Shown here: one piece after another, positions 490 to 59,730 of the stretch | Position numbering within the stretch: the first letter of the stretch is position 1 | Layout: each line of letters starts with the position of its first letter | Assembly (NCBI GenBank): GCA_947172415.1 | Contig: OX359194.1 | Coordinates: 4,402,001-4,466,000 of the forward strand | Source of the DNA: Chondrosia reniformis | Lineage: Eukaryota; Porifera; Demospongiae; Chondrillida; Chondrillidae | DNA: 64,000 nt | Direction of reading: 5' to 3' | Program-made: the position numbers and the translations under genes | Notes under the pieces: model-generated | What the model was told of the DNA's origin: nothing | The model's database searches: none | What the model saw: the letters and a program-made list of their open reading frames with translations, nothing else

Positions 490-3176
490 AGTATATATAC
501 TAGTAAATGTATATAGTACATACAATTAGTACATATAGCTAGCGCATACAACTAGTGCATATAACTAGTAGACACACATAAATAGTTCATACAAATAGTA
601 AATACAACTGGTACATACACCTAGTACGTACCACTAGTACATACAACTAGTGCATACTAGTAGTACACACAAATAGTACATGCAGCTAGTTAATATTACT
701 AGTTCATACGACTAGTACATAGAAATAGGACATACGAATCGTACTTGCAACTAATAAATACAACTAGTAAATACAACTAGTACATATAACTGGAACTAAT
801 ACATAAAACTAGCATATACAACTACTACTAACAACTAGTAACGGGTACATACAACTAGTACATTGAACTAGAACGCACAACATTTACATGCAACTTGTAC
901 ATGCAACTTGTACATACAATTAGTAGATAAAATTAGTACATTTAACTAGTACATACAAATAGTAACGAAAACATAAAACTAGTACATTGAACTACTACAC
1001 AAAACTTGTACATAAAACTAGTAAATAGTACAATCAGCTAGGACAAACAACTGGTACATACAACTAGAACATACAACTGGTATATACATCTAGGTCATAT
1101 AACTACTTTATATAACAAGTACATACAAGTAGTTTCTAGTACATATAACTATATAGTCCCTCCCTAGTACCTAGTTTAAGTAGTACTAGAACCTACAACT
1201 AGTACATACAATCATTGCATACAATTAGTACACACAAATAGTATATACAGCTAGTAAATATAAATAGGACATACTAATTGTACTTGCAACTAATAAATAC
1301 AACTAGTACCTACAACTAGTACCTACAACTAGTACATATAACTAGAACTAGTACATAAAACTAGTACATACAACTACTACTAACAACTAGTAACGAGTAC
1401 ATACAACTAGTACATTGAACTAGAACGCACAACATTTACATGCAACTAGTATATGCAACTTGTACATACAATTAGTAGATAAAATTAGAACATACCACTA
1501 GTACATAAAACTGGTACATAAAACTGGTACATATAACTAATACATATAAAGAGTACACACAACTAGTTCATAAAACTAGTTCATACAACTAGTACATGCA
1601 ACAAGTATCTAGTACATACAAATAATACCTACCTAGTACATAGTATAACTAGTACAAGAATCAACAACTGGTACATACACATAGTACATACAACTAGTAC
1701 ATATAACTAGTACTTACAACTAGAAACTAGTAAATACTACTAGTTCATAGAATGAGTACATAATACTATATAGAACATACAACTTGAATATACATCTAGT
1801 ATATAGCTAATATTAACAACTAGTATATACTTACAACTATTACGTACAACTGGTACATAACTAGTACATAGAAATAGTACATACAACTTGTACATACCAA
1901 ATAGTACACACACCTAGCACATACAATTAGTACATACAACTAGTACATTCAACTAGTCCATACAACTACGACAAACAATTAGGACATATATCTAGTACAT
2001 ACATCTACTACATTTAACTAGTAAATACACATATACCTAGTTATTATGAATAGTACATACAACTAGTACATATAACTAGTAAACAAACATAAAACCAGTA
2101 AATACATATATAACTGGCACTTAAAAATAGTACATACGCATAGTACATACAATTAGTACATACATCAAGTACATACAACTATAAACTAGTACATACAACT
2201 GGTTCATAGAACGAGTACATAATACTAGAATGTAAAACTTGTATATACAACTAGTGCATAGCTATTATTTATAACTAGTATATACATACAACTAGTACAT
2301 ACAACAGGTACATAACTAGTACCTACAACTACTAGTACATACAGTACATTTGTACATACAACTAGTACATAAAACTAAAACATACAACCAGTACATAGCT
2401 AGTACATACAACTAGTATATACATACAACTAGTACATACAACTAGTACATACAACTAAAACATACAACCAGTACATAGCTAGTACATACAACTAGTATAT
2501 ACATACAACTAGTACATACAACTAGTCTCTACAACTAGTACAATTATTACATATAATTAGTACCCACATCTACCACATATAACTAATACATTAAAATATA
2601 ACTAGTACGTATAAATAGTACATTAACATAGTACATACAAGTAGTTCATACCATTACTAGTACATAGAACGAGTACATAAAACTAGGACCTATAACTAGT
2701 AAACACCTACTACATATAATTAGTACATAAATATATAACAAGTACATATGAATAGTGCATCCATATAGTATATATAACTAGTACATAAAACTAGTACGTG
2801 CAACTAGAAACTAGTATATACAACTAGAAACTAGTACATACAACTAATATATACATAAAGCTAGTACTTTTAACTAGTTCATACAACTATTATATACAAA
2901 CAACTAGTTCATACAACTAGTATTTACAATTAGGTCGTACAAGTAGTTCACACAACTATTAACTAGTACATATATATAACCAGTACATGAAACTAGTACA
3001 TACAACTAGTATATACATACAACTAGTTCATACAACTAGTATTCACAATTAGTACATTCAATTAGTCCATACAACTAGGACAAAAAACTAGGATATATAT
3101 CTAGTACATACACCAACTACGTATAACTAATAAATAAACATATACCTAGTAATTATAAATAGTACATATACTGGTT
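490..3176 (+). repeat. 13-bp satellite, forward polarity, block 1
   Basis: Diverged tandem copies of ACTAGTACATACA with single-base variants and small indels; no coding capacity. Higher-order structure is visible. An approximately 70-bp unit is repeated almost exactly at 2381-2450 and 2451-2520. The segment around 1970-2150 recurs at 6978-7160 and, shortened, at 3080-3175. The forward strand is G-poor. Nothing else is seen in this stretch. Confidence 0.95.
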
Positions 3177-8769: not shown

Positions 8770-9850
8770 TCATCTCACTGAGCCCTTTATATATGGAATA
8801 AAGAGTTTGTGTTTACACTCATCCTCACTCCCCTTAGTCTGCCTTCTCCTGTTGAGCAGTCTGTGAGCCTCCCGTTTAGGGTATCCATTAGCTTGAAGTA
8901 CTCCTTCCAGGTGCTCCTTTTCTTTTTCCAAGCTACTGGAGTTTGGTCCACAAATCTTTTCGGCTCTGTCTTTGAGACACAGTGCGATACCAGGTTTTAC
9001 CCTAGGGTGGTGATGAGAGGTAAAGTGAAGGTACCTGTCTGTGTGTGTTGGTTTCCTATACACAAATGTGTCCAAACTTCCCATGCACTTCTTTACTTGC
9101 ACATCCAGGAAGGGTAAGGAACCATTGGTCTCCTTCTCCATGGTAAATTTGATGTTGCGATGTCTTCCATTGAGGAAACTCAAGAAGTCCTCCAGCTGCT
9201 CGTCACTATAATTCCAGATGACAAAGGTGTCATCCACATATCTCAACCACAACTTAGGCCTTATCACAGCAGTACGAAGAGCTTCTATTTCGAATTCCTC
9301 CCTGAAGATGTTCGCTACCACCAGGGAGAGAGGAGATCCCATGGCTGCCCCTTCCTTCTGCTCAAAGAACTCATCACTGTACAGGAAGTACATTGTCCTG
9401 AGACAGAGTTCTGTAAGATCCGCAATGGTGGATATATCCAAGGGTGTCCATTGCTCCAAGTTAGGGTCTTGGGTAAGTCATCTCCTGATGATCTGTAGAG
9501 ATAGATCAATGGGTATTTTGGTAAATAGGCTCCTTACATCGAAACTGATCAACTTATCTTCGGTGTTCACATCCATTCCCTGATCTTCTTGACAAAGTCA
9601 TGAGAATCCCGCAAAAAGTGAGAAGTTTTCCCCATAGCGGTGACAATACCCCTGCCAGGTACCTGGAAAGGTTGTAGGTAGGGGAATTAATGGAGGAAAC
9701 AATTGGTCTCAAGGGGCCTTGTGGATTTTTGGTAATCCGTAGAGCTGAGGTGTGGAGCTGTTTTGGTTCTGAACCTTCTTCCTCAAATCAGAAGGGAGTT
9801 TGCCTTTTTTCTCAAGTGACCTTAGAACTTCAGTTACCTTCTGTTCTATC
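8770..9850 (-). pseudogene. PLE reverse transcriptase domain
   Basis: The longest open stretch (9459-8770, 229 residues) holds the core palm: a GAAMGSPLSLVVANIF block (RT motif 4) and RYVDDTFVIW (motif 5) with the catalytic YVDD. After it come the FLDV and VYRKPTHTDRYLH blocks typical of the PLE thumb. Upstream on the same strand, outside this frame, a YGLPKIHK-type motif (about 9740) and a LISFDVRSLFTKIPI block with the first catalytic aspartate (about 9560) can be read. All core RT motifs are therefore present but spread over frames. Plus-strand frames across 8809-9583 are shadows of this domain. Confidence 0.85.
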
Positions 9851-18700: not shown

Positions 18701-19570
18701 AGTTGTATATAGTACTTTTATGTACTATTTTTATGTAATTTTTCGATATATTAGTTCTATGTACTAGTTGTAGTACTAGTTGTAAATGCTAATCATATGT
18801 ACTAGTTGTATGTACTAGTTGTATATACTAATTGTATGTAATAGTGGCATGTACTAGTTGTATATATGTACTATTTATATAAACCAGTCGTATGTGTATT
18901 TACTAGTTATATGTAGTAGTTGTGTGTTCTAGTTAGATGTACTAGTTGCGTGTCCTAGGTGTCTGCACTAGTTTAATGTACTAGTTGCATGTACTAGTTG
19001 TATTTACTAATTGTGTTTAATTGTTGTAAGTACTAGTTATATTTACTAGTTGTAGTTAATTGTTGTATGTACTAGTTGTATGTACCAGTTGTATGTACTA
19101 TATAGTTTTAGGTTCAAGTACTAATTATGCTAGGTATTAGGTAGGTTGTTTGTTTTAGTTGTATGTACTAGTTGTATGTACTGGTTGTGTGGACTAGTTG
19201 TATGTACTACTTGTATGTACTAGTTATGTACAAGTTGTATGTAGTTTTTGTATGTACTAGTTTTATGTTCTCGTTCTATATACTAGTTTATATATACTAC
19301 TTATATGTACTAGTTACATGTGTATGTACTTCTTCTATGTACTAGTTGTAAAACCAGTTGCAGGGATATACTTGTTGTATGTACTAGTTGTAGTTCTAGC
19401 TGTATGTACTGGTTATGTGGACTAGTTGTATGTACCAGCTGTATGTACTATATAGTTTTAGGTTCTAGTACTAGGTATGCTAGGTATTAGGTAGGTTGTG
19501 TGCGTTAGTTGTATGTACTAGTTGTATGTACTGGTTGTATGTACTGGTTGTGTGGACTAGTTTTATGTAC
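15725..19570 (-). repeat. 13-bp satellite, reverse polarity, block 6
   Basis: Uninterrupted reverse satellite with local duplications, for example a roughly 55-bp unit repeated at about 16745-16855. The frame at 19509-19724 is satellite translation running into a PLE end. No gene is present. Confidence 0.95.
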
Positions 19571-19799
19571 TAATAATAGAATATGGATTCCTTATAACTG
19601 CGTTGAACTTATCTTTGGGATGGTACATCCTTTGACTTTTAAGCGTATAAAAACGCAGTTGTTTTTCGATTGTTGGTCAATTCTTTGTCAAACCCTGGGG
19701 TCTTCCTCAGTGACTGATGGTTGAGTGGAAGAATAGCCTCTATATATAGAGAACCGTTTTATCCAACCCAAAACAGCGACAACCACCTAAGGATATCAA

Positions 19800-20096
19800 A
19801 GGTGTAGTTTAACTAATTCCTTGCTGTGAGTGTTCTGCAGTCTACATTGGTGAAACTGGAAGGACCCTGAAAGAGAGATTGGCAGAACACAAGCGAGCAG
19901 TCAGGATGGAGAATGTGAACAACGGTATAGCTGTTCACTCCCTCAAGACTGGCCACTCAATTGCTTGGGAAAAGGCCAAAATTACAGACAGGGAAACCCT
20001 CTGGCAAAGGAGAAAGGTCAAAGAAGCCATCAGGATCCAGAAGAGTCAGGCGAGAATGAATTTAGATCAAGGCATTTTGTTACATCAAACCTGGAG
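19800..20096 (+). pseudogene. GIY-YIG endonuclease remnant
   Basis: Plus-strand translation shows GVV, LIPC and AVYIGETGRTLKERLAEHKRAVR, then GIAVHSLKTGHSIAWEKAKITDRETLWQRRKVKEAIRIQ. It is closer to a GIY-YIG consensus than the copy at 8447-8671 (YIGETGR instead of YIGGIGR). The longest open part starts at 19879. It is a fragment without RT. Confidence 0.7.
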
Positions 20097-20176
20097 ACAA
20101 TTTAATATTCATATTTCCTGTTTTTCTCATCCTGCTGAGGGTCACATGACAGGAAGTAGAAAGGGCGGGAAAATCC

Positions 20177-20242
20177 TCTATAAATAGAGGCTATTCTTCC
20201 ACTCAATCATCAGTCACTGAGGAAGACCCCAGGGTCAAAACG
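20177..20242 (+). promoter_or_regulatory. TATA box and hammerhead-like core of the PLE
   Basis: CTCTATAAATAGAGG at 20177-20191 is followed by CTGAGGA at 20217, a GACCC/GGGTC stem, and AAAACG at 20237. The core begins about 38 bp after the TATA box, so a transcript started from this box would carry the hammerhead-like motif near its 5' end. Confidence 0.5.
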
Positions 20243-20281
20243 TTTTACAAAGAATTGACGAAGAATCGAAAACCAACTGCC

Positions 20282-22641
20282 CGCTAGTGGAACATGTCCA
20301 CACTTCCGGGAATTTTCGATAAAAGTTGCTAAATGACACTCTTTTTTAATTTATTCTATTTTACTTTAGAAACATCGTATTGCTAAACAAATTATATAGA
20401 ATTGAAGCGCTATTCTTTCTTAATATTTTGGCTACAAGAGCGTTACGATTGCAGGCTTTTAAAAGAAGGTAAGGAGCCGTAAGTGATAGGTGCCAAATTG
20501 CCAAAAATGTTTTATTAGACTGTGGAAAATACGAATATAGAATAAATGGTGACACCAATCTATGAAGGATAATGATATTTAATGATTGTATTGTAGTCCT
20601 TCATATCTCAGTTAAACAAGGGAATATTCCAGGAGTATACATACAACTTTTAGGCTGTTACTTACTGAAGAGATTGATGTCAAAAAATGGTTAGATATAC
20701 AATCCTCCACTGTCTAATAATTGGTTCGTTTTCCATTTGTCTCTTCTCCTTCGAGTAATGGTATTGTCACATGATTATCGGCTAAAATTAGTAGTATAGC
20801 TTAGCCAATATACAATAATTTTTTATGATGTTGCTTATGCACCCAAATATTTGGTAACACGTTTTACAAACATTAGACTTCCGAAGTTGATATGTCAAGT
20901 AAGGCTTCTCCATAGCGATCAGTTTCCTTGATCCGCTAGTGGAACATGTCCACACTTCCGGGAATTTCAGTAAAAGTCGCTAACTAACACTCTTTATTAG
21001 TTTATTCTATTTGACGGTAGAAACATCGTATCGTTAAACAAATTATATAGAATTGAAGCGCTATTCTTTCTTAATATTTTGGCTACAAGAGCGTCACAAT
21101 TACAGGCTTAAAGGAGAAGTTAAGCGGCCGTAAGTGAGAGGTGCAAAATCACCAAAAATGTTTTATTAGACAGTGGAAAATACGAATACAGAATAAATGG
21201 TGACACCAATCTATGAAGGACAATGATATCTTACAATTGTATGTATACTCCTTTTAAATTCCCTTTAGTTCACGAATTATAATCGAAAACATATTTTTGT
21301 AGCTTTTTCGGGTACCTATAGTACTTCATATCTAGGTTAAACAAGGGAATATACCAGGAGTATACATACAACTTTTAGGCTGTTACTTACTGAAGAGATT
21401 GATGTCAAAAAATAGTTAGATTTACAATCCTCCACTGTCTAATAATCCGTTTATTTTCCATTTGTCTCTTCTCCTTCGAATAATGGTATTGTCACGTGAT
21501 TATCAGCCACAATTAGTAGTATAGCTTAGCCATCATACAATGACGTTTTATGACGTTGCATATGCACCCAAATATTTGGTAACGCGTTATACAACCATTA
21601 GAAGTAAGGCTTCTCGGTAGCGAGACAGTTTCCTTGATCAAAGTTTTTGTTGTCGTAGGAGGTAAGTGGAAACAGTAAGCATATTGCATGTCTACTATTA
21701 TCTATGTAAATATCAATGGCGAAAATGTATGAGCAATTAACGAAGCATAATCAAAAGAAAAAGAATAGAACGTTTTGGTCACGTAGGCCTTAATTCCTCA
21801 GCTAATAATAATTGCTGAGGAATTAAGGCCTACATAACCGAAACGTTCTATTCTTCTTTTGAATATTAACGTAGTATAATGATGAATTAAGGCCTACGTG
21901 ACCGAAACGTTCTATTCTTCTTTTTTAATATTAACATAGTATAATCAAAAGGAAAATAAAACGTTTCGGTCACGTAGGCCTTTATGGGCCTTCCTCCGTC
22001 GTTGGCCTTCCTACGCTATACTATAATTTAACATCTATAACGACTAGTGATGAATGGTGACGTTTCAGTGCTGGGTGCTCCGCTTCACGCGCAGGTCACA
22101 TGCTAAAGACACTTCCGCCTGGAATGTGACACTTCTGTAGGCAATAATAAGACGATTTACAAAAATCGGAAATTCGTGGACATGTTCCACATGCGTCAAA
22201 GTTTTTTGTTGTTGTAAGAGGTATGTATGAGCAATTAACGAAGTATAATCAAAAGAAAATAGAACGTTTTGGTCACGTAAGCCTTAATTCCTCAGCTATT
22301 ATAATACGTAAGTAATAGCTGAGGAATTAAGGCTTACGTGACTGAAACATTGTATTCTTTTTTGATTATTAACGAACTATAATCAAAAGAAAAAAAGAAC
22401 ATTTCGGTTATGTAGGCCTTTATTGGTCTTCCTTCGTCATTGGCCTTCCTCCCATATACTATATAAATTCCTCTCACAATTGATAACGACTAGTGATGAC
22501 TCGTGACGCTTCAGGGGCTGGTGCTCCACTTCACGCTCAGGTCACACGCTAGAGACACTTTCGCCTGGAATGTGACACCTCTGTAAGCGCTAATATGACG
22601 ATTTACAAAAATTGGAAATTTGTAGACATGTTATACATGCA
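20282..22641 (+). mobile_element. TIR element copy A (interrupted by copy B)
   Basis: The two halves are 20282-20931 and 22198-22641, together about 1.1 kb; it is inserted in the terminal region of the PLE. Its 5' end CGCTAGTGGAACATGTCCAC is an inverted match (about 18 of 20) of the 3' ends of copies B and C; its own 3' end is more mutated. Flanking dinucleotides CC and CA replace TG of the uninterrupted PLE at about 8180, consistent with a 2-bp target duplication. It has no transposase gene. Confidence 0.75.
20934..22195 (+). mobile_element. TIR element copy B, nested in copy A
   Basis: A 1262-bp complete copy. Terminal inverted repeats are CGCTAGTGGAACATGTCCAC and CGCATGTGGAACATGTCCAC (3' end read inward). 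The flanks are TC on both sides, and copy B's own uninterrupted sequence at the equivalent place (TTGATCAAAG) shows a single TC, so TC was duplicated on insertion. Near 21770-21850 there is a long internal palindrome with arms containing AGAACGTTTTGGTCACGTAGG. It has no reading frame of transposase type. The superfamily is not assigned: a 2-bp non-TA duplication is within the range reported for CMC-type transposons, but the ends do not read CACTA. Confidence 0.8.
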
Positions 22642-22686
22642 CATTTTTAAACGCTAAAACGTTGAAGGATGTACCATCCCAAAGAT

Positions 22687-25600
22687 TCTATGTACTACTT
22701 GTATGTACTAGTTGTATGTACTAATTGTATTGACCTGTTGTATGTACTAATTGTGTGTTCTTGTTGTATGTATTATTTGTATGAACTGGTAATAACTATA
22801 TTTACTAGCTGTAGTTACTAGTTGTATGAACTACTTGTGTGTACTCGTTCTTAGTACTTGTTCTATGTACTATTTGTATGTTCTAGCTATTTGTGTATGT
22901 GCTAGTTATATGTAGTAGTTGTGTGTTTTAGTTATATGTACTAGTTTTGTGTACTAGTTGTATGCACTAGTTGTATGTACTAGTTGTATGTACTAGTTGT
23001 ATGTACTAGTTGTATGTAATTGTTGTAAGTACTAGGTATATTTACTAGTTGCAGTTACTAATTGTATGTACTAGTTGTATGTATTAGTTGTATATACTAG
23101 TTGTATGTACAAGTTGTATGCATCAGCTGTGTATACTGTGGAGTTGTAGGTTCTTGTACTAGTTATACTAGGTACTAGGTAGGTAATAGTTGTATGTACT
23201 AGTTGTTTGTACTAGTTGTATGTACTAGTTATATGTACTAGTTGTAGTGATAGTGCATGTAATAGTTGAATGTTCTAGTTGTATGTAATTGTTGTAAGTA
23301 CTAGTTATATTTACTAGTTGCAGTTACTAATTGTATGTACTAGTTGTATGTACTAGTTGTATGTACTATTTTTATGTTCCAGGGTTATGAAATCGTTCTA
23401 TGTACTAGTTCAAAGTACTAATTTTAGTACCAGTTGTATATGCTAGTTGTATGTACTAGTTGTTTGTACTAGTTGCATGTACTCATTCTATGTACTAATT
23501 GCATGGACTAGGTGTTTGTACTAGTTGTATGTACTATTTATATGTACTAGTTATATTTGTATGTGCTAGTTATATGTATTAGTTGTGTGTTGTGTTTTAT
23601 ATATACTAGTTGTATGTACTAGTACTGGTTATATTTCTTAGTTGTAGGTACTAGTTGTGTGTGCTAGTTGTATGTACTGTTGTATGTACTAGTAACTAGT
23701 TGTATCTATTAGTTGTATGTAATAATTGTATGTCCTAATTGTATATATGTACTAGTAACAACTAGTTGTATGTACAAGTTGTATGAACTAGTAACTAGTT
23801 ATATGTATAAGTTCTATGTTATAATTGTATGAACTAGTTGTATGTAAAAGTAACTAGTTATATGTACTAGTTGTATGTTCTGGTAACTAGTTGAATATAC
23901 TAGTTGTAAAGAGTAGTTGAATGTACTAGTTGTATGTACTAGTAACTAGTTATATGTACTAAATGTATTTACTAGTTGCATGTACTAGATGAATGTACTA
24001 GTTTATATGCTAGTTGCATGTTCTAGTTTTATGTGCTAGAAAATAGTTGTATGTACTAGTTGTATGTGCTAGTTGTATGTTCTAGGTGTATTTGCTTGTA
24101 ACTAGTTGTAGGTACTAGTTGTATGTACTAATTGTATGTACTAGTAACTAGTTGTATACACTAGTTGTTTGTACTAGTTGTGTATTCTAGTTCTATGTAC
24201 AAGTTGTATGTCACTAGTTTTATGTACTAGTTGTATGTACTAGTTCAATGTACTAGTATGTAGTTGTATGTACTAGTAATGTGTACTAGTTGTAGGTACT
24301 AATTGTATGTACTAGTTGTGTGTACTAGTAACTAGTTGTATGTACTAGTTATGTGCACTAGGTTTATGTGCTAGTTAAATGTACTTAGTTGTATATACTA
24401 GTTGTATGAACTTGTAACCTTATGTATGTACTAGTTGTAGGTACTACCTGTATGTACTAGTTGTAGGTACTACTTGTATGTACTAGTTGTGTGTAATTGC
24501 TGTATGTACTAGTTATATTTACTAGTTGTGGTTACCTTTTGTATGTACTAGTTGTATGTACTAGTAACTAGTTGTATATACTAGTTGTTTGTACTAGTTG
24601 TGTATTCTAGTTCTATGTACAAGTTGTATATCACTAGTTGTATGTATTAGTTGTATGTACTAGTTGAATGTAATAGTAATTAGTTATATGTACTAGTTAT
24701 GTGTACTAGTTATATGTACTTGTTGTATGTACTAGTTGTATGTACTAATTATATGAACTAGTAAATAATGTGTAGGTACTAGTTGTAGGTACTAGTTGTA
24801 TGTGCTAGTTGTATGTAATTATTTGTATTAATTGTCTGTAGAAGTTGTGTGTAATTGTTGTATGTACTAGTTATATTTACTAGTTGTAGTTACTAGTTGT
24901 ATGTACTAGTTAAAGTACGCGTTACTAGTTGGTATGTTCTAGTTGTTTGTACTAGGACTAGTTATATTTACTAGTTGGAGGTTCTAGTTGTATGCACTCA
25001 ATTATAAGTAGTAGTGGCATATTATAATTGTATATACTAATTGTATACTGGTTATGTGCTAGTTGAAAGTTCCAGTGGTATGTGCTAATAGTATGTACTA
25101 GTTGTAAGTTTTAATTGTATGTACTAATTTTATGTACTTGTTATATGTACTAGTAGTATGTTCCAGTTTTATGTACCATTTATATGTACTAGGTATATGT
25201 GTATGTACTGGTTATTTGTTCTGGTTGTATGTACTAGTTGTATGTACTAGTTATATGTACTAATTCTGTGTAATAGTTATGTACCAGTTGTAGGTACTAG
25301 TTGTATACACTAGTTATATATACTAGTTGTATGTACTATTAACTATCTGTATGTCCTAGTTGAATGTAGTAGTTGTATGTAGTAGTTGCATGTAGTTATA
25401 TGTACTAGTTTTATGTACTAGTTGTGTGAACTAGTTGTACGTACTACTTGTATGTACTACTTGTATGTATTAGTAACTATATGTATGTACTAGTTGTATT
25501 TACTAGTTGTATGTACTACATGTATGTACTAGTTGTATGTACTTGTAACTATCTGTGTGTCGTAGTTGAATGTATTAGTTGTGTGTACTAATTTTATGTA

Positions 25601-32215: not shown

Positions 32216-34752
32216 CATACAATTAGTACAGACAACTTACATATAACTAGTACATAGCACAATTACACACAACTAGTACATACAACTAGTATATACAACT
32301 AGTCCATACTACTAGTACATACAACAAGTACATACAAGTAGTACATACAACTAGTTACTACTACATTCAACTAGTACATAGAACTAGTTACTACAACTAT
32401 ATAGTAAATATAAGTAATACATACAACAATTACACACAATTAGTACATAAAACTGGTAACTACAACAAGTAAATATAACTAGTACATACAAAAATTACAC
32501 ACAACTGGTACATACAAGTAATACATGTAACTACATTCAACTAGTTCAAACTACTAGTAATACGTATAACTACATACAACTAGTTCAAACTATTAGTATA
32601 TAAAACTAGTAAACACAACTAGTACACACAGCTTATACTAAAAACTAGTACATAGAACTAGTACATAGAACTAGTCACTAGTATGTACAACTAGTACATT
32701 CAACAAGTACATACAACTAGCACATACAAATAGAACATTCAACTAGTGCATTCATCAAGTACATACAACTAGTACATACAACTTGTAACCTCATCTAGTA
32801 AATATAACAATTTCATACACAAATTTCACACAACTAGTACATACAAGTAGTACATATAATTACATACAACTAGTTCAAACAACTAGTACAAACCATTAGT
32901 ACATACAACTACTACATACAACTAGTGCATATATCTAGTTACTAGTACATACAACTAGTACATACAATTAGTAACTACAACTAGTAAATATAACTAGTTC
33001 ATACACAAATTTCACACAACTAGTACATACAAGTAGTACATATAATTACATACAACCAGTTCTAAACAACTAGTACATTCAACAATTTCACACAACTAGT
33101 AAATACAACTAGTTCATATAATTACTTAAAACTAGTACATTCAACTGGTATAAACAATTAGTAAATACAGATTGTTACTAGTACCTACACCTAGAAACTA
33201 CAACTAGTTCATACAACTATTACATATAACTAGTACATGCAACTACGTATTAGTACATACAACTAGTACATACAATTAGGAACTGCAACTAGTAAATATA
33301 ACTACTACATACAGCTAGTAAAAACAACTAGTACATACAACTAGTAAATACAACTAGTACATACACCTAGTACATACAACTAGTTCATACAACTAGTTCA
33401 TACAACTATTGCATATAACTAGTACATGCAACTACTTATTAGTAAATACAATTAGTAACTACAACTAGTAAATATAACTACCACATACAACTAGTAAAAA
33501 AAACTAGTATATACAACTAGTAAATACAACTAGTACATACACCTAGTAAATATAACTGGTTCATACACAAATTTCACACAACTAGTACATACAAGTAGTA
33601 CATATAACTAGGACATATAGCTAGTACATACAATGAGAACATATTACTAGTACATATATCAATTTCACACAACTAGTACATGAAACTAATATATACATAG
33701 TACTAGTACATACAACTAGTACATACTTCTAGTTTCTAGTTCATACAACTAGTACATATAACTAGTACATACAGTTAGTACATACAACTAGTACATATAA
33801 CTAGTACATACATCAATTTCACACAACTAGTACAAAAACCTAATATATACATAGTAGTAGTACCTACATCTAGTACATACATCTAGTTACTAGTGCATAC
33901 AACTAGTACATATAACTAGTACATACAACTAGTACATATAACTAATACATACAACAATTTCACACAACTAGCACATAAAACTAGTACATATTATTACATA
34001 CAACTAGTACATACAACTAGTACATACAATTAGTAAATACAGATTGTTACTAGTACATACACCTGGTATATACAACTAGTTCACACAACGGTTACATATA
34101 ACCTGTACATGCAACTACTTACTAGTACTTACAACTAGTACGTACAATTCGGACATACAACTACTACATACAACAAGTACATACAACTGGTCTCAACAAC
34201 TAGTAAATACAGATTGTTACTAGTTCTTACACCTAGTATATACATCTGGTACATACAATTATTACATACAACTAGTACATACAAGAAAAACATATAACTA
34301 GTACATACCACAATTTCACAAAAATAGTAAATACAACTAGTACATATAATTACTTACATACAACTAGTATATACAACCAGAACATACATCCAGTTACAAG
34401 TACATACAACCAGAACATACAACTAGTTACTAGTATATACAATTAGTACAGACAACTTGTACATATAACTAGTACATAGCACAATTATACACAACTAGTA
34501 CATACAACTAGTATATACAACTAGTCCATACTACTAGTACATACAACAAGTACATACAAGTAGTACATACAACTAGTTACTACTACATTCAACTAGTACA
34601 TACAACTAGTAACTACAACTATATAATAAATATAAGTAATACATACAACAATTACACACAATTAGTACATAAAATTAGTTCATATAACTAGTACATAAAA
34701 CTAGTAACTACAACAAGTAAATATAACTAGTACATACAAAAATTACACACAA
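32216..34752 (+). repeat. 13-bp satellite, forward polarity, block 12
   Basis: Contains the right half of the segmental duplication with 31051-32600. It includes the uninterrupted paralogue of the RLE LINE target (GTAACTAC at 32971-32978) and the uninterrupted paralogue (about 32480) of the TIR element copy C target. No gene is present. Confidence 0.95.
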
Positions 34753-35994
34753 CGCTAGTGTAACATGTCCATACTTCCGGAAATTTTCGATAAAAGTCGC
34801 TAACTAACACTCTTTTTAATTTATTCTATTTTACTTTAGAAACATTGTATCACTACACAAATTATATAGAATTGAAGCCCTATTCTTTTCTAATAATTTG
34901 GCTACAAGAGCGTCACGATTGCAGGCTTAAAGGAGAACTTAAGCGGCCGTAAGTGATAGGTGCCAAATCGCCAAAAATGTTTTATTATACAGTGGAAAAT
35001 ACGAATATAGAATAAATGATGACACCAACCTATGAAGGATAATGATATCTAACGATGGTATGTATACTCCTTTAAAATTCCCTTTAGTTTTTAAATTATA
35101 ATCGAAAACGTATTTTCGTACTTTTATCAGGCGCCTCTAGTACTTAATATCTCAGTTAAACAAGGGAATATTCCAGGAGTATACATACAACTTTTAGGCT
35201 GTTACTTACTGAAGAGATTGATGTCAAAAAATGGTTAGATATACAATTCTCCACTGTCTAATAATCGGTTCGTTTTCCATTTGTCTCTTCTCCTTCGAGT
35301 AATGGTATTGTCACGTGATTGTCAGCCAAAATTAGTAGTATAGCTGAGCCATCATACAATGACGTCTTATGACGTTTAATATGCACCCAAATATTTGGTA
35401 CAAACATTAGACTTCCGAAGTTGATATATCAAGTAAGGCTTCTCGGTAGCGATTCAGTTTCTTTGATCGGAGTTTATTGTTGTTATAAGAGGTAAGTGGA
35501 AACAGTAAGCGTATTGCATGTCTACTAATATCTAAGTAATTATCAATGGCGAAAATGTATGAGCAATTAACGAAGTATAATCAAAAGAAAATAGAACGTT
35601 TCGGTCACGTAAGCCTTAATTCCTCAGCTATTATAATACGTTAATAATAGCTGAGGAATTAAGGCTTACGTGACAGAAACGTTCTATTCTTTTTTGATTA
35701 TTAACGTAGTATAATCAAAAGAAAAATAGAACGTTTCGGTCACGTAGGCCTTTATTGGCCTTCCTCCGTCGTTGGCCTTCCTCCACTATACTATATAAAT
35801 TGCTCATAAGTTTTCACAATTGATAATTTAACATCGTAACGACTAGTGATGACTCGTGACATTTCAGTGGCTGGTGCTCCGCTTCACGCGCAGGTCACAT
35901 GCTAGAGACATTTCCGCCTGGAATGTGACACCTCTGAAAGCGCTAATAAGACGATTTACAAAAATCGGAAATTTGTGGACATATAACACATGCG
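34753..35994 (+). mobile_element. TIR element copy C
   Basis: A 1242-bp copy inserted in satellite and flanked by AA on both sides (34751-34752, 35995-35996). The paralogous uninterrupted satellite at about 32480 reads CACACAACTGGTAC, supporting a 2-bp duplication. The ends match copy B with some decay. The internal palindrome (about 35590-35700) has arms AGAACGTTTCGGTCACGTAA and their complement, then a third partial arm near 35728. The frame at 35856-36095 straddles the 3' end and satellite and is not a gene. Confidence 0.8.
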
Positions 35995-37042
35995 AATTGG
36001 TACATACAAGTAATACATATAACTACATACAACTAGTTCAAACTACTAGTAATACGTATAACTACATACAACTAGTTCAAACTACTAGTATATAAAACTA
36101 GTAAAAACAACTAGTACATACAGCTTATACAAAAAACTAGTACACACAACTAGTTACTAGTCTGTACACCTAGTATGTACAACTAGTACATTCAACAAGT
36201 ACATACAACTAGCACATACAAATAGAACATTCAACTAGTGCATTCAACAAGTACATACAACTAGTACATACAACTTGTAACTACATCTAGTATATATATC
36301 TATTTCATACACAAATTTCACACAACTAGTACATACAAGTAGTACATATAATTACATACAACCAGTTCTAAACAACTAGTACATTCAACAATTTCACACA
36401 ACTAGTAAATACAACTAGTTCATATAATTACTTAAAACTAGTACATTCAACTGGTATATACAATTAGTAAATACAGATTGTTACTAGTACCTACACCTAG
36501 AAAGTACAACTAGTTCATAAAACTATTACATATAACTAGTACATGCAACTACTTACTAGTGCTTACAACTACTACGTACAATTAGGACATACAACTACTA
36601 CATACAACTAGTCCCTACAACTAGTAAATACAGATTGTTCCTAGTTCTTACACCTAGTATATACATCTGGTACATACAAATATTACATACAACCAGAACA
36701 TACAACTAGTACATTAATCTAGTAACTACAACTACTAAATATAACTAGTATATAAAATTATGCACAACTATAACATACCAGTAGTACCTGTAACTACTTA
36801 CAACTAGTACATACATCTAGTATAAAAAACTAGTACATAGAACTAGTTACTGCTACATACAACTAGTACATACAACTAATAACTACAACTAGTAAATATA
36901 AGTAATACATACAACAATTACACATTATTAGTATACAATTAGTTCATATAAATAGTACATAAAACTAGTAACTACAACAAGTAAATACATCTAGTTACTA
37001 GTACATACGAAAAATACACACAACTAGTACATACAACTAGTA
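35995..37042 (+). repeat. 13-bp satellite, forward polarity, block 13
   Basis: Continues the duplicated segment (about 36010-36560 against about 32520-33240) and ends at the Helitron-like element. No gene is present. Confidence 0.95.
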
Positions 37043-49970: not shown

Positions 49971-50177
49971 GAGTATCCGGCTTGGACAACCCTCAGTCAG
50001 TTATGTTTTCCTTTCTTTGGGTTTTTAGCCAGAAGCCACGGCTTTGCCTCCTTCCAGCAGCAGCAGACAGGTGCACGTCGGGCCAAAGTTGACCGTCATA
50101 ATAGGAGGGAGTACCTCCATACACAAATCCACCACTACTTTCCAGAGGTCGACAGGCAAGGACTGGGACAGGACTAC

Positions 50178-51020
50178 TTATCGTCCAGGCCCCAATCCCT
50201 CAACAGATAGATTTCGCCTCAATATACTTACAGCCGAGCAGAGAACAGTTCTCTGCATCGCTCTCATCACTTCTATTGCACTTTTTGACAACTTTGGAAT
50301 TCCACTTAGGTCTTCCAAGAGCGTGTCCACTGTCCCCAAAGCACCAATTATCATCGGGACTACCTTAATTCGGTAGCCCCTAAATTGTTTCCTCATATCA
50401 GCCGCCAGCTTCTGGTACTTTTGGAACTTCTCTTGCCATCTTCCATTAATATTACTGTCAGTAGGAACTGACATCTCAATAATGAAGATGGACTTACATA
50501 GCCGATCCTCAACCACTAAGTCTGGCCTTCTTTCTGTCATTTCATCATCTGTAGGGATACTAGGATCCCACAAGATTTTGACAGCCCTATTCTTATAGAC
50601 TGGTTTTGCTTCTAGTTTGTACCAAGGCTCTTCCTGCTTGAATCCATATTCTTTCAACAGTCTCCACAACACTATCAGTATTGCCCGGTCATGTCTCTCT
50701 TTGTAGAGAGAAAATCCCTTGGGCTCACACATGTTTAGTATGTGTTTGACCGTTTCCATAGCCTTGCCACATTCTCTGCACATTAGGAGGCTAGAATTCT
50801 TCAGAATCCTATTTTGGTACCACCTAGTGTGCAGCACATCATCTTGGGCTGCGAGAATCAGAGCCTCAGTTTCAGGTCTGAGTCTCCCCTCCGAAAGCCA
50901 CACATAAGACTCCCTATTTGTGACTTGTCTGTGGTATGAGCCCTGGTGAGACTTTTCGGCTAGGTTACTTTTTAACCTTTCAGTCTGAGCCTCCCGGAGC
51001 TCACGTGCCACTCTCTCCAT
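50178..51020 (-). pseudogene. LINE zinc knuckle and restriction-like endonuclease
   Basis: 280 residues. CRECGKAMETVKHILNMC is a CCHC knuckle (C-x2-C-x8-H-x4-C) at about 82-99. RPDLVVEDRLCKSIFIIEMSVPTD (about 170-193), with PD, a central E, and KYQKLAADMR downstream, is the PD-(D/E)xK-like nuclease, followed by KVVPMIIGALGTV. In R2-like LINEs this nuclease makes the first nick. Key residues look present. Plus-strand frames at 50044-50376 and 50719-50907 are shadows. Confidence 0.85.
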
Positions 51021-51649
51021 TCTCTTACACTATTTTGTGAGGGATCTATCTTCAGCCACATTTCCGGTTCTAGTTCTATTCCGTGGCTTCTCAGTATCAA
51101 TCTGGCTTCTTTCAAGACAGTCTTCCTCTGCTTTGAGCACTCCAGCCACTTTTGGTGTTTAACCACAACAGCTATGAGTGGATCATTGGCAGTATGGAGG
51201 TATCTCGCCAGATTCACAACAGCCCTGTCGTGATCCAAAGGAAAACTACAGAGCCCTCTACCACCTTGAGAGCGAGGCAAATTCACTCTCTCAATGGCAG
51301 AGTTATAGTGATGACACTGGTACTTTCTCATGATCTTTCTCACCATTCGGTCCAGTTTTGGAAGCTCACTTTGAGTCCACTTCAAAACTGGGTAAGAGTA
51401 TCTCAATAGAGAGGCACACAACATGTTAGAGGCTTCTGCAGCATTCTTACCATTGAGGTGAGAGCCCCACACTTTGTGGAGTCTCCTCCTCAATTCATTG
51501 ATCAAGCAAGCTTTGACCTTGCTGTCATCTACCTCAAACAGTTGTTCTAGCCCTAGGTACTTATAGGTAGTACCTTTTTCAAGGCTGCTTGTGGATTCTT
51601 CACTGCGTTCAGGGTTGTCTGGGCCAGCCAGAACTTTCCCCTTTTGCAT
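50972..51649 (-). pseudogene. LINE RT thumb region
   Basis: 225 residues in the same frame as the RT core. TTYKYLGLEQ corresponds to the RT motif 7 region, followed by SYPVLKWTQSELPKLDR and VNLPRSQGGRGL, a thumb signature of RLE-type LINEs (LPR..GG.GL). The frame shifts again in 50972-51020 before the zinc knuckle. Confidence 0.75.
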
Positions 51650-51658
51650 GTGAGCCGT

Positions 51659-52600
51659 TCAACACTTTCTCACTCCAAACCTCATGCCAATGGCATTTGA
51701 GGTTTTCTCCACACATTCCATGGCTTCCCTGAGTTTATCAGGCCCTCCAGCATATATCTTAAGGTCATCCATGTACAGCAAGTGTGACATGGTGTTCCTT
51801 TCCCCATTATGCCAGAGGGTATATCCCTTGGTTCTGCTAAGAACTTGGGATATGGGAGCTATGGCCAGACAAGAGAGGAGTGGCGATAGGGAGTCTCCTT
51901 GGAAGAGTCCCCTGTTATATTTAACAGGGGTGCTCCTAACCACCTTCCCCGCGGTCCTCAACTCAAGCACAGTAGCCCAGTGTTTGGAGAAGAGCTCTAT
52001 AGACCTCTGGATCCAACCTGGGCACTTGATGGTTTTTAGCACCTTCATCACCCACTTGTGAGGGACTCTGTCATATGCCTTCTCATAATCGATCCATGCC
52101 ACACTAAGTGGCTTGCCCATAATTTTGGCATCTAGACCGATTGATTGATCCAGCAGTAGACAGTCCACACAGCCCCACCTCCCTTTTCTCATGGCTCGTT
52201 GAGCCATAGGTAAAAGATCATTAGTGTAGGTGTAAGTGAGTAATTCTGATGCAATGTATGCTGTGACAGCCTTGTACATTGTGTTGAGACACGCAATAGG
52301 TCGGTAGTTGGCCGCACTTTTCGGGTCAACCTTTTTGGGGATGAGTAGAGTGCGACCCCTTGTAAGCCAGTCTGGCACTGACAGATCTCCGCTCACCACC
52401 CTCCGTAGTGCATCTGCCAAGGCAGACTGTGCAGAGGGGAGTGCTTTCCACCAAAAAGTGTGGATGCCATCCGGCCCAGGGGCTGACCAGCTTTTTGCCT
52501 TTTTCAAGGCTTTCCTCAGTTTGGTCTCATCAATGCTATCGGGACCTTCAGAGGAGGTTCTACCCACCCTCTTTTTGGTTTCCTTTAGCCATTCTCTCAC
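51659..52600 (-). pseudogene. LINE reverse transcriptase core
   Basis: 313 residues containing the RT motifs in order: KSWSAPGPDGI (motif 1), RGRTLLIPKK and NYRPIACLNTMYK (motif 2), AWIDYEKAYDRVPH (motif 3, first catalytic Asp), GLFQGDSLSPLLSCL (motif 4) and LLYMDDLKIYAGG (motif 5, YMDD). The family copies RNA at a nicked chromosomal target in the nucleus. It starts from GTG at the frame junction, so it is a segment of a larger polyprotein and not a separate gene. One in-frame stop near 51659 separates it from the thumb. Confidence 0.85.
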
Positions 52601-52944
52601 CCCTGGGTCATCTTGTTGACCTTACCAACAGTACCTACAATCTCCGTCCAAAAGTCTCTTACTACCTCAATTGAAGGAGCTTCATTGGAGGTTGGAACAT
52701 TGCCATTCATCCGGAACTTCCTTTGGGTATTCCAAAGGTGGTTTTGTTCCTGGAATTTCCTGCGTTCAGCCGATCTTCGCTCTTGTAGGGTCCAGACCCT
52801 GGGTTTCCCCAGTGTCTGTTCCCGAGCTCTGATCAGCACATTCAGGTTTAATGAATGGAACTCCCTCCTAAGCTTTCTTCGGAGTACTTTCTGGCGTTTG
52901 GTCATAGGATTATTATTCTGTTGACGTGCTATTTCCACATCCAA
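52597..52944 (-). pseudogene. LINE polyprotein linker before the RT
   Basis: 115 residues, highly basic at the start (TKRQKVLRRKLRREF), then RDFWTEIVGTVGKVNK, which is the usual lead-in to RT motif 0 in RLE-type LINEs. It overlaps the RT frame by four bases at 52597-52600, at a run of four Gs. A one-base length change there is the simplest explanation for the frame break. Confidence 0.65.
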
Positions 52945-54095
52945 CCAGGCAAGCAGTCTTCTAAACCTAAGGCCTTCCTGTCACTTATGTGACCTTCCTG
53001 TCTCTTATTTCCCTTCTGATTATCTGATTTCCTTCCCTGGTTGCATGGCTGTGATTCGTAGGTTGTTTTTCCCCTCACAGCCATAACAACAGAGTAGACT
53101 AGGCAGTTCAGGTGCCAGGCCGACCTAGGGCCTTCCTGCCACTCTTTCTCCACCCAATCATTGGCCTCCTGAAGCAGTGCCGTATCAACATGGTTGAACC
53201 TCACTGCCCCCCAGGGTTTTCTACCAGAGAAATCTCCAGGTTTCTTTCGGAGACAGGCATCTTTTGCTTTGCCTAAAAGTTGCATCAGTTGATCATTGCC
53301 ACTTGTCCTGGGACTAGGATGATCATTTGTAGGAGTTTCAACAGGGGCTGCAGGCAGCTCACCATTTTGTTCAGTCACAGCCTGAACTTGGTGAAGCTCC
53401 CCCTGCCCCTGGGCTCCCAAACCTTCCTCCACAGTCTCAGTTAGGGTGGCTAAACCACAAGAGTCAGGTTCCACAAGGTTTAGTCTCGAGAGACCTTGAC
53501 CTCTTCGGATTCTACTAATTCTCGTAGTTAGCGCTACCTTTGTGGTTTTATGGTCTGGCATTTTAGCATTCCATGCCTGGTACAACCACTCGGCATACCC
53601 CTTTTCCATGGGCTTACTTTCTCGGTAGAGCTCCATGAGGATATTATCCCTCTGAAGGTTGCAGATTACCCCTTGGATCCTTCTCCTTCTAGAGGCACCT
53701 TGCGGTGCATCATTAACCAAATCTAAATCTCGGCTACCCGTTACTTGCAGTACTCCGTCTCCTACCAAGCTCCTTTTGGCTTGGAAGGCAGGGGTTCGAC
53801 CGATCTGAGGCAAATGTGGGTATTTGCTCAGCCATTCCCGCTCTAAACGCTTTAGATAGCCACCTCTTTTGGGTTCAGATCGCTCAAAGCAATCAATTAG
53901 TGCCCTAACCATTTCCTCGGTCCAGAGGGCTGGTTGGCCCATCACGGGGACCAAAGAAGGGTTATTACATTCAGGTACATCTACCTGTGAGGCACCAGTG
54001 GAATCACCTATTCTGGTTGACCCAGGGTTTTCTTCACCACTGGTGCACCTAGGCCACAGCCTGTCTTGAAAATTTTCTTCGTCATAACGTAACAT
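52929..54095 (-). CDS. LINE polyprotein N-terminal part, DNA-binding-like repeats
   Basis: 388 residues from ATG at 54095. It contains two similar segments. At about residues 57-95, ALWTEEMVRALIDCFERSEP continues to a GGYLKRLEREWLSKYP block. At about 148-185, LMELYRESKPMEKGYAEWLYQAWNAKMP follows the same plan. The spacing of aromatic and basic residues resembles SANT/Myb-like or trihelix DNA-binding repeats, which in RLE-type LINEs help choose the target. The rest is low-complexity and rich in Q, E and P. The frame continues into the linker only by a frame change at about 52930-52944. The start is the first ATG after the leader, and its assignment is tentative. Confidence 0.65.
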   Translation of the reverse strand: MLRYDEENFQDRLWPRCTSGEENPGSTRIGDSTGASQVDVPECNNPSLVPVMGQPALWTEEMVRALIDCFERSEPKRGGYLKRLEREWLSKYPHLPQIGRTPAFQAKRSLVGDGVLQVTGSRDLDLVNDAPQGASRRRRIQGVICNLQRDNILMELYRESKPMEKGYAEWLYQAWNAKMPDHKTTKVALTTRISRIRRGQGLSRLNLVEPDSCGLATLTETVEEGLGAQGQGELHQVQAVTEQNGELPAAPVETPTNDHPSPRTSGNDQLMQLLGKAKDACLRKKPGDFSGRKPWGAVRFNHVDTALLQEANDWVEKEWQEGPRSAWHLNCLVYSVVMAVRGKTTYESQPCNQGRKSDNQKGNKRQEGHISDRKALGLEDCLPGWMWK

Positions 54096-54272
54096 AACCC
54101 AGTGAAGCTGCCAGACAGGGGGTTAGCCCATACGGGCAGGGAGGCTGATTTAGCCACAGGATGCCACATGAAGGGCTAAGCACCCTGCTCCGTCGGGGGG
54201 TTGAACTGGACAATACCCATCCTCTTGTCAGCTCGGAACCACAGCCTCCAATTCCCACGACATTAACTACAC

Positions 54273-57876: not shown

Positions 57877-58098
57877 CATGCCTCCCTTTTCAATTTGGCA
57901 GTACAGGGACGTAATTCACGCGCTTCCGTATTCTATTCGCACGACTGCCTCAGCTCAGGCTCGCCCCATGATGATAAGCATCTGCCTAGTGTAAATATAC
58001 ATCGCACAAAAGAGGTAACTTCGACGACTGAACTCTGTTCAGACTGATCGTACTGTATGACATTGTTAATAATGTTTTTGGCGCTTAGGTGCTCTACC

Positions 58099-59730
58099 AT
58101 GTGTTCGAGAAGTATGGCTTCAGCAAGTTTCAAGAATGCTACCTGTTCAAGAAACGCTTTAACACTGAAGGAGAAATACAGTGTAATCAAAGAGGCAGAG
58201 AAACATCCCAAGCCTGATATTAAAGCAATTGCTAAGCAGTTTAAATGTGGAAAAAGTCAAGTTTACACTATCTTGCAGAAAAGGGCTTCAATTACAGAAA
58301 TGTATGAATCAAATGCTTCCGATGGCATCCAACATTGCAGCAAGCAGAGCAGGACATCAAAGTACACAGATATAAATGACAACCTGTACAAGTGGTACCT
58401 AATGGCTGTGCGCAAAAATATCTACCCTGATGGCCCCATCCTTTCTCAACAGGCCAAAAAAATTGCTGAGCATCTCAACATAGAGGATTTCAAGGCCTCC
58501 AATGGATGGCTTGAGAAGTGGAAAGCAAAGCATAACATAAAAAAAGATGAAAATCAGTGGTGAATCAGATCCTGTCTCAGGTCAGACCATAGAGTCTTGG
58601 AAGGAGTGTCTCCCTGAAATTTTGGCAGGATACAATCCCAGGGATATATGGAATACGGATGAGACTGGATGCTTCTGGAGGACATTACCAACTACTGGTC
58701 TGGCACAAAAGAGCAAAAGTTGCAAACGAGGCAAAAACAGTAAGCAAAGGATGACATTGGCATTTTTTGTCAATGCTGCAGGAAGAAAGAAACAAAGCCA
58801 ATTTTGATTGGGTCATCAGAAAATCCAAGATGCTTTAAGGGTGTTGACAAAAAGCAGCTACCAGTTCATTATTATCACAATGCATCATCATGGATTAATG
58901 GAAACATTCTTCACAAAGTCCTTTGTAAAGTCAATCAAAGGTTATTATCAGAAGGTCGCTCAGTATTACTTTTAATGGATAATGCTGGTTGCCACCCAGT
59001 TGATGTAGTTGATAAATACAGCAATATCAAAGTAGTGTTTCTTCCGCCAAACACTGCGTCCATGCCCCAGCCCTTGGATCTAGGTATCATTAAGAGCTTC
59101 AAAGTACATTACAGAAATTTTTTTCTCAGCCATGTGATAGCGAAACTAGAAGAATCTTCATGTGCTTCAGAAATTGTCAAATGTGTCAATAGTTTGCATG
59201 CATTGAGGTGGGCAGCCCAAGCATGGGAAAGTGTTCGTTCAGAAACCTTCAAAAAATGTTTTCGCAATGCTGGTATTTTAACAGCTGATTTCTCTGTTGT
59301 GTCATCTCACTCTACTCCAAGCAGTGATCCCTGGATGCAGACCCGGGCATTGGTGATTTGGAGCCCCTTAAAAATGATATTTCTGGAGAAACCTGCAGTG
59401 TTGAAGAGTTTGTTTCTGGTGACAATGAACTGCCCACATGCCAAGATATGGCTTCTGAACACTGGGAGGAGTTTCTGGCACAATTGACAGATGACACCAA
59501 GTGAAGAACCAAATGATGATGACATTAGTGATTTGGTTACTACTGTGCCCACGATCAGAAATTTCAGAGAAGCAGTCACATCACTTGAGGATGTAGCAGC
59601 ATTCTTGGACTATCATGGACACACTAAGGAAGCTAACAATACAAGCAGGCTAGTGGATGTAGTTACCACTTTGTGTATTAACAGTAGTAAAAGTCAAACA
59701 AGTTTGGACACTTTTTTTGGCAGGATCTAA
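58099..59730 (+). pseudogene. Tigger transposase (CENP-B-like HTH plus DDE domain), frameshifted
   Basis: Likely start ATG is 58099 or 58114. The N-terminal helix-turn-helix is ALTLKEKYSVIKEAEK...IAKQFKCGKSQVYTIL. A second CENP-B-type HTH follows around LSQQAKKIAEHLN...ASNGWLEKWKAKHNI (ending near 58555). The catalytic core shows three aspartates: WNTDETGCFWR (about 58655), LLLMDNAGCHP (about 58980) and QPLDLGIIKSF (about 59085), the DDD triad of Tigger elements. The reading frame changes near 58550-58563 (plus one), 58800 (back), about 59335 (to the third frame, an acidic tail) and about 59500 (back), with the stop at 59730. With four shifts this copy cannot make a transposase. Confidence 0.9.

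Follow-up and report, generated by a model that had tools for sequence, protein, structure and literature searches.

Animal transposons of the CACTA type, or TRCs, offer the closest described comparison for the family reported here. In the available excerpt of PMC1636069, 7 of 14 SmTRC1 copies are flanked by a 2-bp repeat, and the TRCs of Tribolium and Aedes make 2-bp target duplications and have ends that need not read CACTA. The excerpted text of PMC4298943 gives Spongebob of Hydra (EnSpm-4N1_HM) a 2-bp duplication and CCC ends, and that of PMC4482050 gives the CMC group a target duplication of 2-4 bp. The family analysed here is a gene-less transposon of about 1.1-1.3 kb with more than 100 copies in the genome of the sponge Chondrosia reniformis. 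It resembles the animal CACTA elements and TRCs, as those excerpts present them, in its 2-bp target duplication and in short inverted ends that are not necessarily CACTA. In contrast to the animal TRCs (ends CCC) and plant CACTA elements (CAC), its ends begin CGC. TRCs were named via their transposase, and none was found for this family in a genome profile search of one transposase family. We consider the family a DNA transposon with terminal inverted repeats (TIRs) and 2-bp target duplications (TSDs), with a probability of about 97%, and regard it as a new, non-autonomous family whose general type is familiar. In the literature searched (Repbase and Dfam lay outside that search), no description of the family was found, nor any paper joining Chondrosia reniformis with transposable elements.

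The window, which is the whole stretch of 64,000 nucleotides analysed (C6:4402001-4466000), belongs to a genome of which 117,379,552 bases in 15 contigs were searched. It holds three copies of the family (Table 1). An earlier note on this DNA had described an unclassified TIR element that duplicates two target bases of varying sequence and has one copy inserted in another, and the genome-wide set agrees with that description. The ends are found at the positions that it claimed, with four matches to the end pattern in the window (up to three mismatches) against a shuffle mean of 0.01, and ends reaching beyond them were not seen in the 34 insertions read.

Table 1. Positions in the window of the three copies and of their ends, target duplications and hairpin.
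Feature	Position	Strand	Remarks
Copy A	20282-22641	+	Split by copy B; inside the end of a Penelope-like element; flanks CC / CA
Own parts of copy A	20282-20933 and 22198-22641		TC at 20932-20933 is the target of copy B
Left TIR of A	20282-20301	+	With near-palindrome GTGGAACATGTCCAC
Left TC duplication of B	20932-20933
Copy B	20934-22195	+	1262 bp, inside copy A; TSD TC/TC
Left TIR of B	20934-20953	+
Right TIR of B	22176-22195	-	CGCATGTGGAACATGTCCAC
Right TC duplication of B	22196-22197
Left AA duplication of C	34751-34752
Copy C	34753-35994	+	1242 bp; TSD AA/AA
Left TIR of C	34753-34772	+
Long hairpin inside C	35575-35705	+	Stem predicted to exceed 50 pairs; z-score -14.9 for 35550-35760
Right AA duplication of C	35995-35996

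The TIRs are 20 bp long and imperfect (CGCTAGTGGAACATGTCCAC / CGCATGTGGAACATGTCCAC), and each end contains one near-palindromic site, GTGGAACATGTCCAC. The consensus starts of the ends are CGCTAG and CGCATG. Genome-wide, the end pattern has 269 matches at up to three mismatches (135 forward, 134 reverse), and the control, the same pattern read backwards, has one. Left ends occur in three main forms (…TCCAC, …TCCAT and …TCAAC) and right ends in two (CGCATGTGG… and CGCATGTGT…). The ends listed number at least 162 left and at least 133 right (295 in all), and the exact-match lists favour less diverged ends. A few ends read CACTAG, which looks like CpG decay of CGCTAG. The sequence GAACATGTCC, present in every canonical end (e.g. 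20290-20299), is what we take to be a p53 half-site (RRRCWWGYYY), a likeness that is probably a by-product of the palindrome. Viral contigs contain no end-pattern match, and the three matches in prokaryote genome contigs were taken as chance.

Among the ends listed there are 84 convergent left-right pairs no more than 12 kb apart. Since 74 of them span 749-1435 bp (66 span 1052-1302 bp), the family is a short element. Spans above 2 kb occur in six listed pairs; judged by the positions of further ends within or next to these pairs, several seem to be adjoining copies. No ORF of 150 codons or longer in the window ORF list overlaps copies A, B or C. The family has the features of a non-autonomous, MITE-like TIR element, namely inverted ends on dispersed copies of one length class, a TSD of constant length with unfilled counterparts, and, for A, B and C, no coding capacity. 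The hairpin inside copy C stands out in the predicted fold of 35550-35760, at -93.9 kcal/mol versus -35.6 in shuffles (z -14.9). Inverted hairpin units are more numerous in B than in C, and their count may explain part of the length variation.

Target duplications were read from 42 distinct 12-bp flank pairs. Five with wrongly called ends (L001/960, L025/1461, L037/1639, L038/1508 and L038/1654) were dropped and the four variants of A were treated as a single insertion, leaving 34 distinct insertions; those sharing identical 12-bp flanks entered the count once, and duplicates with altered flanks could remain. The loci read are mostly top-scoring (40 of 274 candidates were scored) or exact-end, and old copies are under-represented. 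A 2-bp direct repeat flanks 29 of the 34 insertions, and the third base agrees in only one of the 29. When the right-hand pairs were redealt among the 34 insertions in 5000 trials, the mean was 7.2 matches and the maximum 15. Besides A, the insertions that lack an exact 2-bp repeat are L026 (CT/AG), L036 (TT/TA), L052 (GT/AT) and L054 (TA/TT). A relative of the L026 site in the window (50010-50087, 87.5%) has no insertion and shows CT once, which suggests that L026 carries a CT duplication plus two extra bases at its right end.

DNA without the insertion is present for several of these cases. Copy B lies inside copy A with TC at both borders, and TC occurs once in B's own equivalent sequence and in seven further, uninterrupted A copies in matching Penelope-like surroundings (L002-L008). 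For the test of unfilled sites, the flanks were joined with the two bases present once and compared with the DNA collected for the analysis, and gap-free matches across the junction were obtained. The counterpart of B matches at 94.3% over 70 bp (L060). Copy C, with AA at both borders, has an insertion-free counterpart in array DNA that is 98.75% identical over 80 bp (L056). Further counterparts include those for L010 (TA; 97.5%, L012), L013 (CA; 96.25%, L017), L020 (CT; 96.25%, L056), L035 (CT; 97.5%, L017) and L050 (CA; 98.7% over 77 bp, window 1627-1703). Apart from that of B, these are mostly 13-bp array units, whose weaker matches number in the hundreds to thousands. Because the targets are so repetitive, the counterparts count as near-identical relatives of their targets and not as proven alleles. 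Large arrays of the 13-bp unit (TAGTTGTATGTAC-like) are found, for example, at window 19000-19590, 22686-24000 and 33500-34750; such arrays accompany many of the ends read and receive many insertions. The family provides a clean and countable case of a sequence-free 2-bp duplication in a sponge, in which the nested insertion and the unfilled counterparts settle the rule.

Copy A is less clear. Its flanks read CC and CA, as the earlier note had stated, but the TG that the note gave for the related Penelope-like element is CG. These flanks are compatible with a decayed 2-bp duplication, and because the Penelope-like end without the insertion has CG where A has CC/CA, they cannot prove one. Of the three insertions that the note had found in agreement, B and C are therefore the clean cases, to which 27 more are now added, and A is not one of them. 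The element that hosts copy A (window 19611-20281 and 22642-22686) is a Penelope-like element end with long inverted repeats and a putative GIY-YIG-like reading frame, CSAVYIGETGRTLKERLAEHKRAV; this frame has no Pfam match. A reverse transcriptase fragment at window 8770-9477 (RVT_1, E 1.1e-4, below cut-off) perhaps comes from a Penelope-like element as well.

The genome of C. reniformis contains CACTA elements of its own. A profile search with PF02992 (Transposase_21) gave at least 55 matches, 54 of them over the cut-off, and none in 14 control genomes. Open frames longer than 700 codons contain 23 of the 55. Two of these CACTA families could be followed to their apparent ends. At L072 the end is CACTGGAAAAG (CACTGG), set where the matches of other copies stop. 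At L073 it is CACAGGGGAAAACGC, where two copies with different flanks begin, and three copies of the L073 family are 99-100% identical. The three-copy CACTA family with this level of identity at C14:2499500-2506500, C7:3113504 and C8:1999975 starts CACAGGGG, has an 886-codon frame in two copies, and has probably been active recently. The L072 and L073 families share with the family studied here the genome and a C-purine-C start, and differ from it in their CACTGG and CACAGGGG ends and in one long transposase ORF. The ends CGCTAGTGGAAC and CGCATGTGGAAC of the family have in common with the L072 and L073 ends both C-purine-C and a later GGAA or GAA, a likeness of letters that would be too little to establish kinship. 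Neither B nor C is detectably similar to any of the three CACTA transposases or elements compared, which include the L072 and L073 families.

Plant CACTA members carry repeated subterminal motifs. In copies B and C, any 11-mer (up to one mismatch) occurs at most twice per 300-bp end, as in shuffles (six each). A short target duplication (2-4 bp) without fixed sequence is a CACTA trait that the family shares, and its starts CGCTAG and CGCATG are neither CACTA or CAC nor CCC. The family works like a CACTA-type element. It is not filed under CACTA because it lacks the CAC or CCC start and, in the two copies compared, the subterminal repeats.

The enzyme that mobilises the family is probably, though with considerable reservation, a CACTA-type (En/Spm, tnp2-type) transposase. 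Such a transposase, made elsewhere and acting in trans, would bind the 20-bp inverted ends, each with its near-palindromic site, and would excise the element by a cut-and-paste process. The element would then be inserted where the target has been cut, at no fixed sequence and with a stagger of two bases, and repair of the staggered target would produce the 2-bp direct repeat. Later, amplification of repeat blocks multiplied some resident insertions without transposition. If the partner is a CACTA element, the range of ends accepted by CACTA enzymes widens; if it is not, the family points to a new superfamily.

An autonomous relative with the same termini, which the earlier note had proposed to seek, was not found when the PF02992 matches were set against the listed ends. 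None of the 55 matches is bracketed by family ends (295 ends listed), and five have a listed end no more than 16 kb away; of these ends, three face away and two inward. The inward end at C2:4085921 (L043) continues for about 890 bp into interior sequence of the family itself and leads to no partner. The other, at C2:4387960 (L078; read with L076, L079 and L080), is an end fragment of 77-80 bp joined to a repeat of about 390 bp, three other occurrences of which lack this end. An exon lying 546 bp inside this end has five weak relatives (E 3.6e-4 to 9.7e-4). For four of these, a PF02992 match follows 0.7-1.7 kb downstream; the L073 family accounts for four of the five, the exception among them, so that the evidence comes from just two families. 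At C2:4387960 itself, the PF02992 match located 8.9 kb downstream is of another family (94.6% to L074). A piece of a CACTA gene probably adjoins the end fragment at C2:4387960; the junction looks secondary and is counted as a joining of unrelated pieces, not as a partner, and as an unproven lead. A nested element at about C2:4389050-4390790 (from about position 150 of L076 to about 1190 of L080) has ends that look inverted by eye (AAAGGTCCTAT...) and two frames, one with a THAP domain (PF05485, E 5.7e-14) and the other matching no Pfam family.

The exact-end loci were also read. Thirty were cut out, 13 other exact-end places lying outside this set, and nine of the 30 have no right end within reach (L041, L042, L043, L047, L049, L053, L056, L061 and L062). 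Compared with B and C, these nine are complete or fragmentary family copies, several of them broken by other repeats, and were rejected as partners. L061 runs on into sequence of Tc1-like appearance, and L041 and L042 run on into a repeat with GGGGCTGCC..GGCAGCC. L062 retains 217 bp of the family, and the open frames near it look like a membrane-protein gene. The candidates at C1:5182804 and C2:8435158 are truncated family ends, and the copy with two right ends at C1:5076663-5077161 (L077) is rearranged and has no duplication by eye.

The absence of a partner bears on the alternative that survives best, a DNA transposon of no described superfamily that uses a palindromic end site, accepts any target and cuts it with a 2-base stagger. 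This we consider unlikely. It agrees with the CGC termini, the near-palindromic core, the lack of a fixed target and the lack of a partner beside the at least 55 CACTA matches (among the ends listed), and the end sequence matched no transposon paper by title in the literature searched. However, CACTA and TRC elements, as the excerpts cited above describe them, already account for a free 2-bp target rule, and the partner's absence says little because PF02992 is the only transposase family searched in the genome. The corresponding proposal of an undescribed eukaryotic superfamily, with the near-palindromic end site GTGGAACATGTCCAC, CG...CG termini, any two bases duplicated, and an autonomous member that is rare or lost here, is rather doubtful.

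The identity of the duplicated bases decides against two other types. The 29 duplications comprise TA 13, CA 3, CT 3, AA 2, AG 2, TG 2, TT 2, GA 1 and TC 1. Tc1/mariner and pogo elements duplicate TA and, like the family studied here, have short inverted ends and small non-autonomous derivatives. A Tc1/mariner or pogo type with relaxed target choice would fit the 13 TA cases, and a pogo/Tigger-like transposase is present in the window (58048-59487) as two open pieces, the first with CENP-B_N and HTH_Tnp_Tc5 and the second with DDE_1. However, 16 of the 29 duplications are not TA, including the well-supported TC of the nested copy and the AA of copy C, and these non-TA insertions with insertion-free DNA largely refute the proposal. 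The excess of TA is unsurprising because many insertions sit in 13-bp arrays of ACTAGT-like units, so that it would be expected from the targets. We therefore regard a Tc1/mariner or pogo origin as quite improbable. The duplications are also neither longer nor TA-only, the outcomes that the earlier note had named as telling against its claim.

An ISL2EU (PHIS) type element would agree in the length of the duplication alone. The excerpt of PMC4482050 describes ISL2EU as duplicating AT within A|AT|T, and AT occurs in none of the 29 duplications here; unless a partner shows otherwise, the target sequences refute this reading, to which we give very little weight.

Some copies have been multiplied together with their surroundings. 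Copy A occurs in eight places, the window's included; about 1.5 kb of left flank is common to all seven others, and six of the seven (not L008) also have a long right-flank match to the window's A. These copies show that an insertion has been multiplied through amplification of the surrounding repeat block. Regularly spaced series of copies are present on C10, C11 and C13. Both observations would suit a satellite or segmental-duplication unit whose ends merely resemble inverted repeats, but the insertions have 29 different pairs of flanks with exact 2-bp duplications, spread over many chromosomes. Together with the insertion-free DNA, these refute the satellite reading, and we give it next to no credence.

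The transposon reading with 2-bp duplications also agrees with the similarity among copies in different surroundings. In an alignment of 36 sequences, of which one has a wrongly called end, identity to the nearest neighbour is as high as 99.4%. L026 and L027 reach this value and have different flanks. The nearest relative of copy C is 98.1% identical and the nearest independent copy to B 98.6%. Such similarity between independent copies suggests that the family moved recently. Along each chromosome, the listed ends are concentrated in a single inner zone.

Other repeats were observed in the window and beside the family. A retrotransposon-like stretch occupies window 50178-54122 on the minus strand, with RVT_1 in 51659-52621 (E 9.7e-27); neither of the neighbouring open frames (50178-51029 and 52929-54122) has a Pfam match. 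DNA related to this stretch is the insertion-free counterpart of L026. A repeat with GGGGCTGCC..GGCAGCCCC near one end occurs in L041 from about position 510, in L042 at about 66-465, in L080 at 1427-1851, and in L074. It is inserted in the family copies L041 and L042, and its L074 and L080 copies are 85% identical.
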